A stretch of DNA of 54,681 bases from an uncultured Synergistaceae bacterium (GTDB lineage: Bacteria > Synergistota > Synergistia > Synergistales > Aminiphilaceae), in the NCBI GenBank assembly GCA_937868015.1, contig CALMLW010000071.1, positions 1 to 54,681 on the forward strand, written 5' to 3'. Below the pieces are notes generated by a model. The model saw only the letters and a program-made list of their open reading frames with translations. It did not search any database and was not told the origin of the DNA. Of this stretch, positions 15,496 through 48,291 are shown piece after piece (position 1 is the first letter of the stretch; the number at the start of each line of letters is the position of its first letter). A program made the position numbers and the translations under genes.

Positions 15496-15620
15496 GACCC
15501 CCCGAGGGGATCCCAGCGCCCCCGTGGCACCCAAAGCGATCCGCGTACCGTTGCTTCCTTCCGGACCTAGCGGGGTTGGCGGTTCTTTGCCGCACGGGAC
15601 TGGAAGCCCCTCGGGGGATC
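15496..15620 (-). ncRNA. ffs: Signal recognition particle RNA, small bacterial type
   Basis: Scaffold RNA for Ffh in co-translational membrane targeting. The minus strand carries the highly conserved apical segment GGTCCGGAAGGAAGCA with its GGAA tetraloop, in a long rod. The ends pair: GATCCCCCGAGGGG at the 5' end with CCCCTCGGGGGGTC at the 3' end. At about 125 nt it lacks an Alu domain, like E. coli 4.5S RNA. Its 5' end lies 11 bases after tRNA-Ser(GGA). Confidence 0.93.
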
Positions 15621-15631
15621 GTTGAAAAAAA

Positions 15632-15725
15632 TGGCGGAGAGGGCGGGATTTGAACCCGCGAGGCAGGTTTGAGCCCGCCTACTCGCTCTCCAGGCGAGCG
15701 CCTTCGACCACTCAGCCACCTCTCC
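15632..15725 (-). tRNA. tRNA-Ser (GGA anticodon)
   Basis: 94 nt including an encoded CCA. The acceptor stem GGAGAGG/CCTCTCC, D arm TGGCTGAGTGGTCGAAGGC, anticodon loop with GGA, long class II variable arm and T arm GCGGGTTCAAATCCCGC are all visible. It reads UCC/UCU codons. Confidence 0.96.
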
Positions 15726-15764
15726 GCTACGAGAAACGCCCCGGACGGGCCCTGGAAGTTTAGG

Positions 15765-15859
<95 letters not shown>

Positions 15860-44582: not shown

Positions 44583-45887
44583 ATGGCAGCGCCTTGGGTG
44601 GAGATCCGTCGAGTGGCAGATTTTGAGAATCGCGAAGTGACCATCAAGGGGTGGCTTTTCAACAAGCGGAGCTCGGGAAAGATCCACTTTTTGCAGCTCC
44701 GGGACGGCACGGGGTTCATCCAAGGGGTGATGGTAAAGCAGGCGGTCCCCGAAGAGGTCTTTGAATTGGCTAAGACGTTGTGGCTCGAGGCATCCCTTGA
44801 AGTCACTGGCGTGGTGCGGGCCGATGAGCGGGCTCCGTCAGGGTTCGAGCTGACGGTGACGGGTCTTCGGCCAATCCAAAACCCTTCAGAGGAATACCCC
44901 ATCGGGAAAAAAGACCACGGCATCGATTTCCTGATGGACCACCGCCACCTGTGGCTTCGAAGCCGAGGACAGCACGCAGTGATGCGAGTCCGGGACCAGG
45001 TGATCTGGAGCGCCCGGTCCTTCCTCAGGGATCGGGGTTTTCTCCTGGTGGACAGCCCCATATTGACTGGAGCCGTGGGAGAAGGAGCTTCGGGGCTCTT
45101 CGATCTGGACTATTTCGACACGGGAAAGGCCTTTCTCGCCCAGACGGGTCAGCTCTACGCCGAAGCAGCGGCGGCGGCCTATGGCAAGGTGTATTGCTTT
45201 GGCCCCACCTTCCGGGCCGAAAAATCCAAGACCCGGCGCCACCTCACGGAGTTTTGGATGATCGAACCAGAGGTGGCGTTCTACGACCACCACGACAACA
45301 TGAAGCTCCAGGAAGACCTGGTGAGTGCCATCGTCCGGGACGTGTTGGAAAACTGCGTTCCCCAGTTGACGATCCTGGAGAGGGATTTAGAACCCCTCCG
45401 CAAGGTAGTGGCCCCTTTCTACCACATCTCCTACGACGAAGCGGTGGATAAGCTTCGCTCCCTGGGAAGCGATATCCAGCACGGCGAGGATTTCGGCAAC
45501 GACGACGAAACGCTCCTGACCCAACAATACGACAAGCCTCTTTTCGTAGAATGTTACCCAAAAAAGGTCAAGGCGTTTTATATGAAAGAACACCCCGATC
45601 GGAGCGACCTGGTGCTCTGCGACGACCTTTTGGCCCCCGAAGGGTATGGGGAGATCATCGGAGGATCCCAGCGCGAGGACGACCTGGACCGGCTCCTGAC
45701 GCGCATTCGTGAACAAGGGCTACCGGAGGAGTCCTACAGCTGGTATCTGGACCTGCGGCGCTACGGGTCCTTCGTGCACAGCGGTTTTGGCATGGGCGTC
45801 GAACGCGTGGTGGCCTGGATCTGCGGCCTACAGCACATCCGGGAGGCCATTCCCTGGCCCCGGACGATCTATCGCATTCATCCCTAA
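44583..45887 (+). CDS. asnS: Asparaginyl-tRNA synthetase
   Basis: Class IIb aminoacyl-tRNA synthetase (434 aa) charging tRNA-Asn. OB-fold anticodon domain (about 10-100, VTIKGWLFNKRSSGKIHFLQLRDG); motif 2 in CFGPTFRAEKSKTRRHLTEF; motif 3 in FGMGVERVVAWICGLQHIRE. The YFDTGKAFLAQTGQLYAEAA segment fits AsnRS rather than AspRS. The ATG follows GGAGGAGG. Divergent from the CbiA-like gene (90 bases apart) and followed by a strong terminator. Confidence 0.95.
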   Translation: MAAPWVEIRRVADFENREVTIKGWLFNKRSSGKIHFLQLRDGTGFIQGVMVKQAVPEEVFELAKTLWLEASLEVTGVVRADERAPSGFELTVTGLRPIQNPSEEYPIGKKDHGIDFLMDHRHLWLRSRGQHAVMRVRDQVIWSARSFLRDRGFLLVDSPILTGAVGEGASGLFDLDYFDTGKAFLAQTGQLYAEAAAAAYGKVYCFGPTFRAEKSKTRRHLTEFWMIEPEVAFYDHHDNMKLQEDLVSAIVRDVLENCVPQLTILERDLEPLRKVVAPFYHISYDEAVDKLRSLGSDIQHGEDFGNDDETLLTQQYDKPLFVECYPKKVKAFYMKEHPDRSDLVLCDDLLAPEGYGEIIGGSQREDDLDRLLTRIREQGLPEESYSWYLDLRRYGSFVHSGFGMGVERVVAWICGLQHIREAIPWPRTIYRIHP

Positions 45888-45986: not shown

Positions 45987-46289
45987 TTAGGCGCGCTCTA
46001 AAAGGGCGTTTTCCACATAGAGGGTGATCTTCCACAGAAAGCGCGCATGGCCCACGCGCACGGCGCCTCCCTCCGTCCGGAGCTTGGCAGGGACCCAGAT
46101 CTTTACCCCATCCTTGGCCAAAGCCTCGTACCCCTGCGCATCTTCCGGGGCGCCGCCCTCCACGAGGGCGGCGTAGCGAGCCGCTCACCCTCCCCCCACC
46201 CGGCGAACGACCACATACCCCTCCCCGTTCCACTTGTCGCGGATCACCTGGAGAGCCTTGTCGGAGATCTCCAACGAACGCTTTCCCAT
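45987..46289 (-). CDS. HesB/IscA-like selenoprotein with in-frame UGA (Sec35)
   Basis: Read through the UGA at 46187-46185 the gene has 100 codons and ends with TAA at 45989. The first part is MGKRSLEISDKALQVIRDKW then GEGYVVVRRVGGG; after the UGA follow AARYAALVEGG, GYEALAKDGVKIWVPAKL and FLWKITLYVENALLERA. This is the HesB/IscA layout: an SDKAL helix, a strand, one redox residue, a DGVKI-VP strand and a closing strand. The UGA falls where IscA has Cys35. Eleven bases after it a 9-bp perfect stem (46173-46165 with 46159-46151) with loop CGTGG is placed like a bacterial SECIS element. The C-terminal Cys-x-Cys of IscA is absent, so it is probably not a simple cluster carrier. ATG 46289 has GAGAGG upstream. 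HesB-like proteins are a known prokaryotic selenoprotein family. A plain pseudogene is less likely because codons on both sides stay in frame. Confidence 0.82.
46151..46173 (-). promoter_or_regulatory. SECIS-like hairpin downstream of the in-frame UGA
   Basis: On the minus strand CGCCGCCCT-CGTGG-AGGGCGGCG: nine GC-rich pairs and a five-base loop containing GU. It starts 11 bases after the UGA, with the apical loop about 21 bases after it, within the range of known bacterial SECIS elements that bind SelB. It lies inside the coding sequence, as bacterial SECIS elements do. Confidence 0.7.
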
Positions 46290-46321
46290 GGCCCCTCTCC
46301 CCCTTCTCGTACGATAGACCA

Positions 46322-46350
46322 ATTATACCCCTATCGGGTATATTTGGCAA
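46322..46350 (-). promoter_or_regulatory. Promoter of the selenoprotein gene with a CsoR-type dyad operator
   Basis: On the minus strand TTGCCA (46350-46345), 17 bases, perfect TATAAT (46327-46322), 33 bases ahead of the ATG. The perfect dyad TATACCC-N5-GGGTATA (46324-46342) covers the spacer and most of the -10 box. Its AT-flanked C3/G3 arms resemble operators of the CsoR/CstR/RcnR family. The promoter overlaps the last codons of the pseudouridine synthase gene. Confidence 0.75.
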
Positions 46351-47281
46351 CCCTCCGGGGAGCGCCATCCAGAGGACCAAAGAAATGGACAAAATCCTCC
46401 GGCGCCGGGGCCACAAAGGTCCTCCCCGAAAGGCCCTCTAGGGGTGCCGGAAGGGAAGGCAGCCCCAGTTCTCGGGCGTGGAGAAGAGGGCGAGGGGGGG
46501 CGCCCGCTCCGGGAAGGGGAGTGATCACTCCATACTTACGATCTCCCCACACGGGGTACCCCCAGGCGGCGGCGTGGACCCGAGCCTGATGTGGGCGCCC
46601 CGTCTCCAGATCCAGGGCTACCAGAGCCAGGGGGGGCCGACGGATCATGGTACGAAAAATCGTCCGGGAGAAAGCTCCGTCCGGGGCCACGGTCACGGTG
46701 TTCGTGGAGGGGTCTTTGCGCAGGGGGAAGTCCACCGTCGCACCTTCGGGGATTTTTTCATCCCCCGTCCAGAGCACCGCCCAGTAGGTTTTTTCCACTC
46801 GCCCCAGGCGCCACGCCTCTTGCAGGGCGCGAAGACCTACCCCTGACCGGGCCACCAAGAGCACCCCGGAAGTGTTTCGATCCAGGCGGTGTACCGGAGT
46901 CGGACGAAAAGCCCCCCCGCCTTTCTCCCGGGCCCAGGCCCGCGCGGCCACGCTGTCCGGGGCGTCCCGGCCGGGCTGGGTCAATAGCCCTGCGGGCTTA
47001 TTCACGACCCAGAGCTCCGGGGCCTCCCATAGGATTTCCAAGGGTAGGGCCTTTCCTTCTCTCTCGGGAGGAAGACCCGGAGGAAGCCAGGGAGCCGTGA
47101 TTGTTTCTCCGGCGATCACGGGGTCTCCTCCCGCCCTTTTTTTGCCATCCACCCGCACTTCTCCCGTGCGAAGGGCCCGGGCAAGGGCCCCCAGGGGGAT
47201 CTCTGGCCAACGGAGCCTGAGGATCCGGTCCAGCCGCCTCCCTTCATCGTGGGATTCTACGCGGAAGGCGTCTCTTGCCAT
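46331..47281 (-). CDS. RluA-family pseudouridine synthase
   Basis: A 316 aa enzyme isomerising uridine in rRNA or tRNA. The N-terminal S4-like RNA-binding domain (about 5-65) has RLDRILRLRWPEIPLGALA. The catalytic domain has WVVNKPAGLLTQPG, HRLDRNTSGVLLVARS with the catalytic aspartate, and ETGRPHQARVHAAAWGYPVWGD. RluC/RluD are the closest named types, but target uridines cannot be assigned. The start overlaps the 3' end of the YhaM-like gene by 25 bases. Confidence 0.92.
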   Translation of the reverse strand: MARDAFRVESHDEGRRLDRILRLRWPEIPLGALARALRTGEVRVDGKKRAGGDPVIAGETITAPWLPPGLPPEREGKALPLEILWEAPELWVVNKPAGLLTQPGRDAPDSVAARAWAREKGGGAFRPTPVHRLDRNTSGVLLVARSGVGLRALQEAWRLGRVEKTYWAVLWTGDEKIPEGATVDFPLRKDPSTNTVTVAPDGAFSRTIFRTMIRRPPLALVALDLETGRPHQARVHAAAWGYPVWGDRKYGVITPLPGAGAPPRPLLHARELGLPSLPAPLEGLSGRTFVAPAPEDFVHFFGPLDGAPRRVAKYTR

Positions 47282-48291
47282 TTCCAGAATCGCCGCCCTG
47301 TGGCCTGGTGATAATCGCTGATGCCCAAGACATCTCCCATGGATCGCACCGTGTGGTCGTAGACGAAGAGGCGAAAATCCAATTCGTCCGCCGCCGCCAC
47401 CACCAAGGCCTCGGCAGTGGCGGGAAGCACGGGGGATCCGTACTCCTTCGCCCCGTGGTGGCTGAGCAGGATATGTCCCAGGTGGAGCGCCACGGTGGGT
47501 GCCAGGGAGAACTCTTCAGCCAGGCGGGAAAAGGCGGCGTACCCCAGGGCGATGTGATCGTGCACTGATCCCGAGAGGGTGAGCATGGGCATGGGATCCA
47601 GGCCGTAAGCATCGACCTTTCCCAGGTCGTGGAGCAGAGATCCCCCCAGCACCACGGATCGATCCAATGAAAAATCCCGGATGATATAGTCCTCGGCGAT
47701 GGCCAAGGCGCTCGATGCCACGGCCACGGTGTGCTCCAGCAGGCCGTGGACGTAGGCGTGATGGTGAGAGGTGGCAGCAGGGTACGTGGAGAACTTCTCC
47801 CATCTCTCCCCCCGAAAGACGTGCTGTAAAAAGCCCTTCACGGGATCTTCGGCCCGGTCCACGAGTTCCCGAAAGCGCCGCTCCAGGTCGACAAAGGGGA
47901 TAGGAGACTTGCGGACATAGGCATGGGGAGGATTTTTTTCCTGATTAAGGAGATACACTTTGGAAAAAGTGTACTGGGGGCGGCCGTTGTAGGACGACAC
48001 CTTTCCTTGGACTCCCACGGTACATCCGCTGATCCGAGAAAAAAAGGCGTCTTGGGACGGGTCGACCCGCCGGGGCTCCTCTTCCTCGACCCGGCGGTCG
48101 TACCATTCGCTATTGCTCCACACCTTGGCTTCCAGGGTTCCATCCCCATCCATGACGGCGACGTCCCAGTAGGGTTTCTGGTTTTTGTCCAGTTTTTGTG
48201 TGATGGAAGTCGCCACAAACTTTCCCCAGAAGACCCCTCCTTCGGATAGGTCTCGAACCTGTGCGATGGAAAATACTTGCTGATCGGCCAT
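47257..48291 (-). CDS. YhaM-like 3'-5' exoribonuclease (OB fold plus HD domain)
   Basis: A 344 aa protein. The N-terminal OB domain (about 10-115) has KPYWDVAVMDGDGTLEAKVW. The HD metal-dependent phosphohydrolase domain has HHAYVHGLLEHTVAVASSAL, LLHDLGKVDAYGL and LGHILLSHHGAKEYGSPVLP. This combination is that of the Firmicute YhaM exoribonuclease. The ATG follows GGAGGAG. It precedes the pseudouridine synthase with overlap, an RNA-processing pair. Confidence 0.9.
   Translation of the reverse strand: MADQQVFSIAQVRDLSEGGVFWGKFVATSITQKLDKNQKPYWDVAVMDGDGTLEAKVWSNSEWYDRRVEEEEPRRVDPSQDAFFSRISGCTVGVQGKVSSYNGRPQYTFSKVYLLNQEKNPPHAYVRKSPIPFVDLERRFRELVDRAEDPVKGFLQHVFRGERWEKFSTYPAATSHHHAYVHGLLEHTVAVASSALAIAEDYIIRDFSLDRSVVLGGSLLHDLGKVDAYGLDPMPMLTLSGSVHDHIALGYAAFSRLAEEFSLAPTVALHLGHILLSHHGAKEYGSPVLPATAEALVVAAADELDFRLFVYDHTVRSMGDVLGISDYHQATGRRFWKWQETPSA

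Follow-up and report, generated by a model that had tools for sequence, protein, structure and literature searches.

A probable selenoprotein of family NF041239 with a predicted IscA/HesB-type fold in an uncultured Synergistaceae bacterium

Bacteria of the Synergistota (Synergistetes) are described, in the accessible parts of two reviews, as rich in selenoproteins (PMC13188914, PMC9312934). The first of these, from 2026, tabulates selenoprotein families, known as well as predicted; NF041239, with the motif CxxU, appears there as a hypothetical protein from Moorella thermoacetica, and the HesB-like family TIGR01911, with the motif UxGP, has an entry of its own (PMC13188914). The Moorella protein is given without a domain in the accessible portion of the 2022 review (PMC9312934), and the HesB-like selenoproteins form a family of their own in the available text of a 2006 paper (PMC1794560). 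No published statement of an IscA/HesB fold for NF041239 was found in the open-access literature. In the HesB-like selenoproteins of TIGR01911, Sec sits, as we take it, at the first cluster Cys, and Cys 35, 99 and 101 of E. coli IscA are presumably the ligands.

The gene reported here lies in a window of 54,681 nucleotides (the whole stretch of DNA that was analysed, contig CALMLW010000071.1 of assembly GCA_937868015.1). Its product is very probably a cytosolic selenoprotein of 100 residues in the NF041239 family, with a predicted IscA-type fold that puts Sec at the position of the first cluster Cys; the features of the locus are collected in Table 1. A preliminary description had proposed a 101-codon frame (stop included) interrupted by a single UGA at codon 35, and exactly this frame was recovered on the minus strand. 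Its expression signals were also found as described: the near-consensus promoter matches the sigma-70 consensus at 11 of 12 positions, in a region that holds two promoter-like sites against a shuffle mean of 0.1, and the ribosome binding site corresponds to a purine-rich stretch. The gap between the end of the rluA-type gene and the start of the selenoprotein gene, on the same strand, is 41 bases. Around Sec the protein reads VGGGUAAR. The C-terminal CxC of IscA, noted earlier as missing, is indeed absent and the whole protein is free of Cys; the 57 bases past the stop of the gene hold no Cys codon in any frame. Elsewhere in the window, a small SRP RNA lies at 15507-15859 on the minus strand, beside two tRNA-Ser genes.

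Table 1. Features of the selenoprotein locus, in window coordinates.
Feature	Position	Strand	Remarks
Selenoprotein gene (probable)	46289-45987	minus	ATG...TAA, 100 codons + stop; NF041239 family; predicted HesB/IscA-type fold
In-frame UGA, codon 35	46187-46185	minus	probably read as Sec; aligns with IscA Cys35
SECIS-type hairpin	46173-46151	minus	stem of 10 bp with GUG loop; begins 11 bases 3' of the UGA
Sigma-70-like promoter TTGCCA-17-TATAAT	46350-46322	minus	overlaps the end of the rluA-type gene; consensus match only
Purine-rich, ribosome-binding-site-like stretch	46292..46305	minus	3-16 bases 5' of the ATG; from sequence
rluA-type pseudouridine synthase gene	46331..47281	minus	directly upstream; named by sequence recognition
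HD-domain/OB-fold nuclease-like gene	47257..48291	minus	next upstream of the rluA-type gene; named by sequence recognition
asnS-like gene	44583..45887	plus	convergent with the selenoprotein gene; named by sequence recognition

With C written for U, the window protein scored 42.2 bits against the NCBIfam model NF041239 ('CC/Se motif family (seleno)protein'; cut-off 40), and the alignment covers positions 3-89 of the 91 in the model; in a six-frame scan of the genome the same gene reached 37.2 bits, which is under the cut-off. The gene belongs to an already catalogued selenoprotein family, and what is new is the clue to the fold. It shares with the Moorella family the score above the cut-off over nearly the whole model and the Sec residue. 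However, the accessible part of the review table gives the motif CxxU (PMC13188914), whereas the Synergistales sequences mostly carry G-x-G-Sec and the window protein lacks Cys altogether. The second Cys that belongs to the motif, whether written CC or CxxU, is absent from it; this motif is the label of the family's representative and not a shown rule of the model. The proteins of TIGR01911 are likewise small selenoproteins named for the HesB family, but their motif UxGP is missing here, where U-A-A-R is found, and TIGR01911 was not among the NCBIfam matches of the window protein (E <= 10) or of 32 aligned family rows (E <= 1); NF038090 (IscA_HesB_Se) was matched by two of these 32 rows, with a best E of 0.035. 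The UXX-star selenoprotein family 2 (NF041211) is similar in its motif label GxGU, as given in the accessible part of the review table (PMC13188914), but the NCBIfam search with the window protein (E <= 10) did not return it. A Pfam search with the window protein matched no family. For the window protein, the comparison with protein-family profiles that had been suggested at the outset led to NF041239 and to no TIGR01911 or PF01521 match.

Relatives were collected with the NF041239 model from 180 genomes of the class, which gave 63 matches in 48 genomes, the window gene included; matches above the cut-off occur in seven genomes. The alignment of 32 rows consists of the window protein and 31 of the 63 matches, chosen by hand; all 32 match NF041239, which is partly circular, as the rows were found by this model. 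Invariant over these rows are G32, G34, C35 (U), V43 and G46, and W65 and P67 are nearly so. Exactly one in-frame TGA is present in 56 of the 63 matches and none in the other seven; among the latter, one (L094) has Cys in the aligned column, three (L100, L117 and L121) have Cys there by eye, and three have neither Sec nor Cys. The sequence analyses took in 55 of the 56 UGA rows, one of them (L037) cut by a contig end, and the rows span ten family-level groups. The remaining row (L124) was left out of the codon, folding, Cys and tree analyses; read separately, it has the TGA and CTC at +7. Gly is found at -3 from Sec in 48 and at -1 in 52 of the 55 rows, and 12 have a Cys directly after Sec. 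The homologues do not vary randomly past position 34, as 65-71 further residues follow in the 13 rows that were checked. Position 35, which the preliminary description had proposed to check for Cys or Sec in homologues, shows the recurrent TGA and, in the tandem copy L094, Cys. Judged by this comparison, the UGA at codon 35 is held in most relatives, with a frame that continues into conserved protein sequence.

A further scan, of a set of genome contigs, with the window protein alone as query gave no match; with the post-UGA alignment as query it gave nine loci, all of Synergistota type and Thermovirga among these, and none in the viral contigs scanned. A search of the defence library gave no match either. 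A second, weak match of the window protein in its own genome (C267, E 0.0067) was discarded, since by sequence recognition it resembles a methylguanine-DNA methyltransferase. Several loci deserve a separate remark. In one genome, Sec and Cys copies stand in tandem, with match starts 451 bases apart (G106:C1 2136737-2137451; L018 / L094 / L140). Eight more UGA copies that do not lie beside rluA (L033, L097, L102, L107, L118, L108, L114 and L122) have signal-peptide-like N-termini by eye and are possibly exported selenoproteins of the NF041239 family. In another genome, the rluA-linked copy (L110, in G112) has no TGA, a changed motif and a Cys-rich tail, which is likely a loss of Sec.

The hairpin behind the UGA had been drawn as a stem of 9 bp with a 5-base loop, beginning 11 bases after the UGA, and this structure is contained in the minimum-energy fold, which adds one base pair. 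Taken by itself the hairpin is moderately unusual: against dinucleotide shuffles of 60 nt its z was -1.76 and 11 of 200 shuffles were as good, and on the window none of the Rfam SECIS families scored as high as its gathering threshold. Synonymous-codon shuffles within the gene, which keep both the protein and the codon usage, gave z -1.95 (p 0.043) for the 51-nt stretch of the window gene. Two duplicate sequences were excluded from the folding tests, leaving 53 distinct genes with the window gene among them. Over these the mean z of the 51-nt stretch from the UGA was -0.99; 41 of the 53 lay below 0 and 16 had p < 0.05, p being >= 0.05 in the other 37. The signal is sharper in windows of 10 codons. 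Starting 2-5 codons past the UGA, they gave z -2.5 to -2.9 in the window gene and mean z of -1.63, -1.75, -1.62 and -1.68 at +2 to +5 codons over the 53 genes; at +6 the mean was -1.06, and at all other tested starts along the genes it lay between -0.47 and +0.31.

Codon choice within the hairpin gives a similar picture. Residue +7 is Leu in 51 of the 55 UGA rows and its codon is CTC in 49 of these 51 (CTG in two; four rows have another residue), compared with CTC in 144 of 488 among the other Leu codons of the same genes. For Glu at +9 the codon is GAG in 34 of 35, and the constraint over the hairpin reads CTC-GTN-GAG. By comparison, six different codons serve for the Leu of the conserved FLW, which is present in 27 rows, and the Cys copy L094, beside the Sec copy L018 in G106, has CTG at the hairpin Leu codon. 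As the rows are related by descent, the codon bias is given without reliance on a P value. Comparison of the sequences shows that the hairpin just after the UGA is under selection at the RNA level, which makes it a clear case of a bacterial SECIS that is selected as nucleotide sequence within a coding region.

These data also bear on the reading that the UGA is a sequencing error, that it encodes another amino acid, or that the product ends after 34 residues. An error can produce a lone UGA in a short frame, and the window alone excludes nothing of this kind. However, a lone in-frame TGA recurs in most of the family, the 55 rows from ten family-level groups have a common RNA-level signal after it, and TGA-free copies carry Cys in the same column (aligned in L094; by eye in the other three), so that we regard this reading as extremely improbable.

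A search for selA, selB, selC and selD, proposed in the preliminary description as a check, had a mixed outcome in the window's own assembly (G000; 83.8% complete, 2.44 Mb in 354 contigs). That description had named the lack of selB, selC and selD as grounds for refutation, and by this assembly alone those grounds apply. The selA and selD models found nothing in this incomplete assembly, and no selB was present among the model matches; the four matches of the selB model are, by sequence recognition, IF2, a TypA-like GTPase and two EF-G-like proteins. The 11 matches of the tRNA-Sec model, searched for selC, are all other tRNAs; eight of them were checked as loci, and the three in L010 are two tRNA-Lys and a tRNA-Leu according to ARAGORN. 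The RF01852 match above the gathering score is a tRNA-Leu and not tRNA-Sec. Across the class, the selA model matched in 137 of the 180 genomes (132 above its cut-off) and in 45 of the 48 that hold NF041239, the exceptions being G000, G002 (56% complete) and G007 (80%); the selD model matched in 176 of the 180, in 123 above its cut-off, and G000 is not among them.

The positive part of the outcome is that the assembly holds grdA and grdB, each with UGA at the canonical Sec site: ECFVUTAAG (CxxU) in grdA and TSTUGTCTRCG (UxxC) in grdB, with a frame that runs on to TAA or TAG. These glycine reductase genes stand, together with a thioredoxin-like gene, at L127 (G000:C233). In addition, yedF was detected above its cut-off; it adjoins a cysteine-desulfurase-like gene at L182 (G000:C45 58647-60433), where selA is not adjacent, and in G012 yedF adjoins selA. 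Also in G012, a selB-like gene (by recognition) follows selA, and selD lies ~176 kb away. From this spacing it follows that at least two loci are missing from the G000 assembly, and the need for at least two assembly gaps is the main weak point of the selenoprotein reading. One alternative is a relic: Sec decoding would have been lost, and the gene would be a fresh remnant in which UGA now stops translation. In favour of it are the sel genes that were not found and the absence, from the window protein, of the Cys that the three same-family relatives carry in their C-terminal tails. Nevertheless, grdA and grdB keep their UGA codons with frames open around them, yedF is kept, the hairpin stands out in the window gene itself, and the assembly is incomplete. 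Because G000 holds the UGA-bearing grdA and grdB as well as yedF, an assembly gap is likelier than loss of Sec decoding, and we consider a relic very unlikely.

The fold was approached by structure prediction. AlphaFold2, given the window protein (C for U) and nine relatives, returned a model with pLDDT 89.9 and pTM 0.79. Foldseek against the PDB gave no match at E <= 0.001 for this model; the top match was SufA (2d2a; E 1.2e-3, probability 1.00, TM 0.60), and the best seven were chains of SufA, AQ_1857, IscA and HI1723; the sequences of AQ_1857 and HI1723 match that of E. coli IscA. Ranks 8 to 10 were 9a4q_B, IscA and DsrR (we take 9a4q_B and DsrR to be of HesB/IscA type), and from rank 11 the probability was <= 0.15 in the rows shown. 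A second, less confident model, of a Thermovirga relative with a tail Cys (pLDDT 80.4, pTM 0.68), had IscA/SufA-type chains as its best eight matches, with a best E of 7.8e-5. When the family alignment was run as a sequence profile against the PDB, IscA was not found; it emerged from the fold comparison alone.

Ordinary A-type carriers of the same lineage were sought as a reference. PF01521 was matched at E <= 0.001 in none of the 41 genomes searched (of the 180), G000 included, and the order Synergistales may lack ordinary A-type Fe-S carriers; for this reason E. coli IscA, ErpA and SufA were taken as the comparison set. The profile comparison with these three gave probability 78.7 and E 1.7e-5 and set Sec35 on IscA Cys35, in agreement with the earlier placement of Sec at the first cluster Cys. 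PF01521 itself was matched weakly by seven of the 32 aligned rows at E <= 1, with a best E of 2.2e-5. The window protein is similar to the A-type carriers IscA, SufA and ErpA in its predicted fold and in the place of Cys35, but it differs from them in having no PF01521 match, no C-terminal CxC and ~17% identity; of the three E. coli IscA residues named above, Sec would occupy the first place and the other two are absent. The earlier naming as a HesB-like protein stands on the side of the predicted fold and the profile comparison, and not on that of the TIGR01911 and PF01521 models, which went unmatched. We predict that the window protein is built on an IscA-type scaffold and is, by its own score, not a member of PF01521. 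Sec35, the SECIS-type hairpin and the HesB/IscA-type fold are each supported by separate tests.

The genomic context of the family is stable. In 42 of the 63 NF041239 matches, the window gene included, the gene is preceded on the same strand by an rluA match whose end is no more than ~440 bases away, and an HD-domain nuclease-like gene precedes rluA in 35 of these 42 loci. The other 21 matches comprise the Cys copy, L124, L113 at its contig end and additional copies, and in several of the latter the start resembles, by eye, a signal peptide. For the Cys analysis, the rluA-linked UGA rows number 42; they leave out the TGA-free rluA-linked copy of G112 and include L113 by kinship, as its contig ends before the position of rluA. 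In seven of them Cys directly follows Sec and the tail is free of it, in 33 the tail holds a Cys and Sec is not followed by one, and two have neither, namely the window gene and the truncated L037. Among the 13 other UGA rows, five have Cys after Sec, three have a tail Cys and five have neither. The pattern of a Cys beside Sec or in the tail, never both, gave a Fisher p of 1.3e-6 in the 42 rluA-linked rows and of 0.23 in the 13 others; on the tree it comes down to ~3 independent pairs or changes and is not significant. We take the alternation of the partner Cys as a hint only.

Concerning the role of Sec, one alternative keeps the same selenoprotein and makes Sec a metal or cluster ligand, in an A-type-carrier-like protein that would hold an Fe-S cluster, iron or some other soft metal, or a metalloid. 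The predicted fold and the ligand position match IscA. Cys-rich tails, of which GCGGCTGCH is an example, occur in many relatives, and for one relative with such a tail the weak match to PF01521 reaches the end of the model. The absence of PF01521 matches from the 41 genomes, in which no ordinary A-type carrier was seen, leaves room for a metal or cluster role and is not proof of it. However, one Sec and no Cys give the window protein a single ligand per chain, presence in 48 of the 180 genomes does not fit an essential carrier, and no Fe-S gene was recognised by sequence among the neighbours at 14 loci. We consider this role possible, though rather doubtful.

For the selenoprotein with a redox role, to which we incline slightly, the following course is conceivable. 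SelB bound to the hairpin would bring Sec-tRNA to the UGA, and the resulting protein is predicted to fold like IscA, SufA and HesB, with Sec in place of the first cluster Cys. The reactive selenol, placed in a Gly-x-Gly-Sec turn, would then carry out thiol/selenol redox chemistry. In most relatives it may be resolved by the Cys next to Sec or by the one in the C-terminal tail; in the Cys-free version of the window an outside thiol would have to do this, since the protein has no partner Cys and the redox step is here without a visible resolving residue.

Standard gene calling would split or drop the gene described here. A more far-reaching proposal, which we offer as speculative and rather unlikely, is that NF041239 represents a second, separate lineage of selenoproteins with IscA/HesB fold, whose Sec replaced the cluster Cys, and that in an order with no ordinary A-type carrier seen in the 41 genomes searched it acts as a one-selenol carrier of metal, metalloid or cluster or as a redox switch tied to the rluA operon, with the Cys-free window version working on selenium alone. 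The family has been carried in reviews as a predicted selenoprotein with no assigned function. Its function is made testable by the predicted IscA/HesB fold, the Cys35 ligand position, the stable rluA neighbourhood and the two places of the partner Cys.
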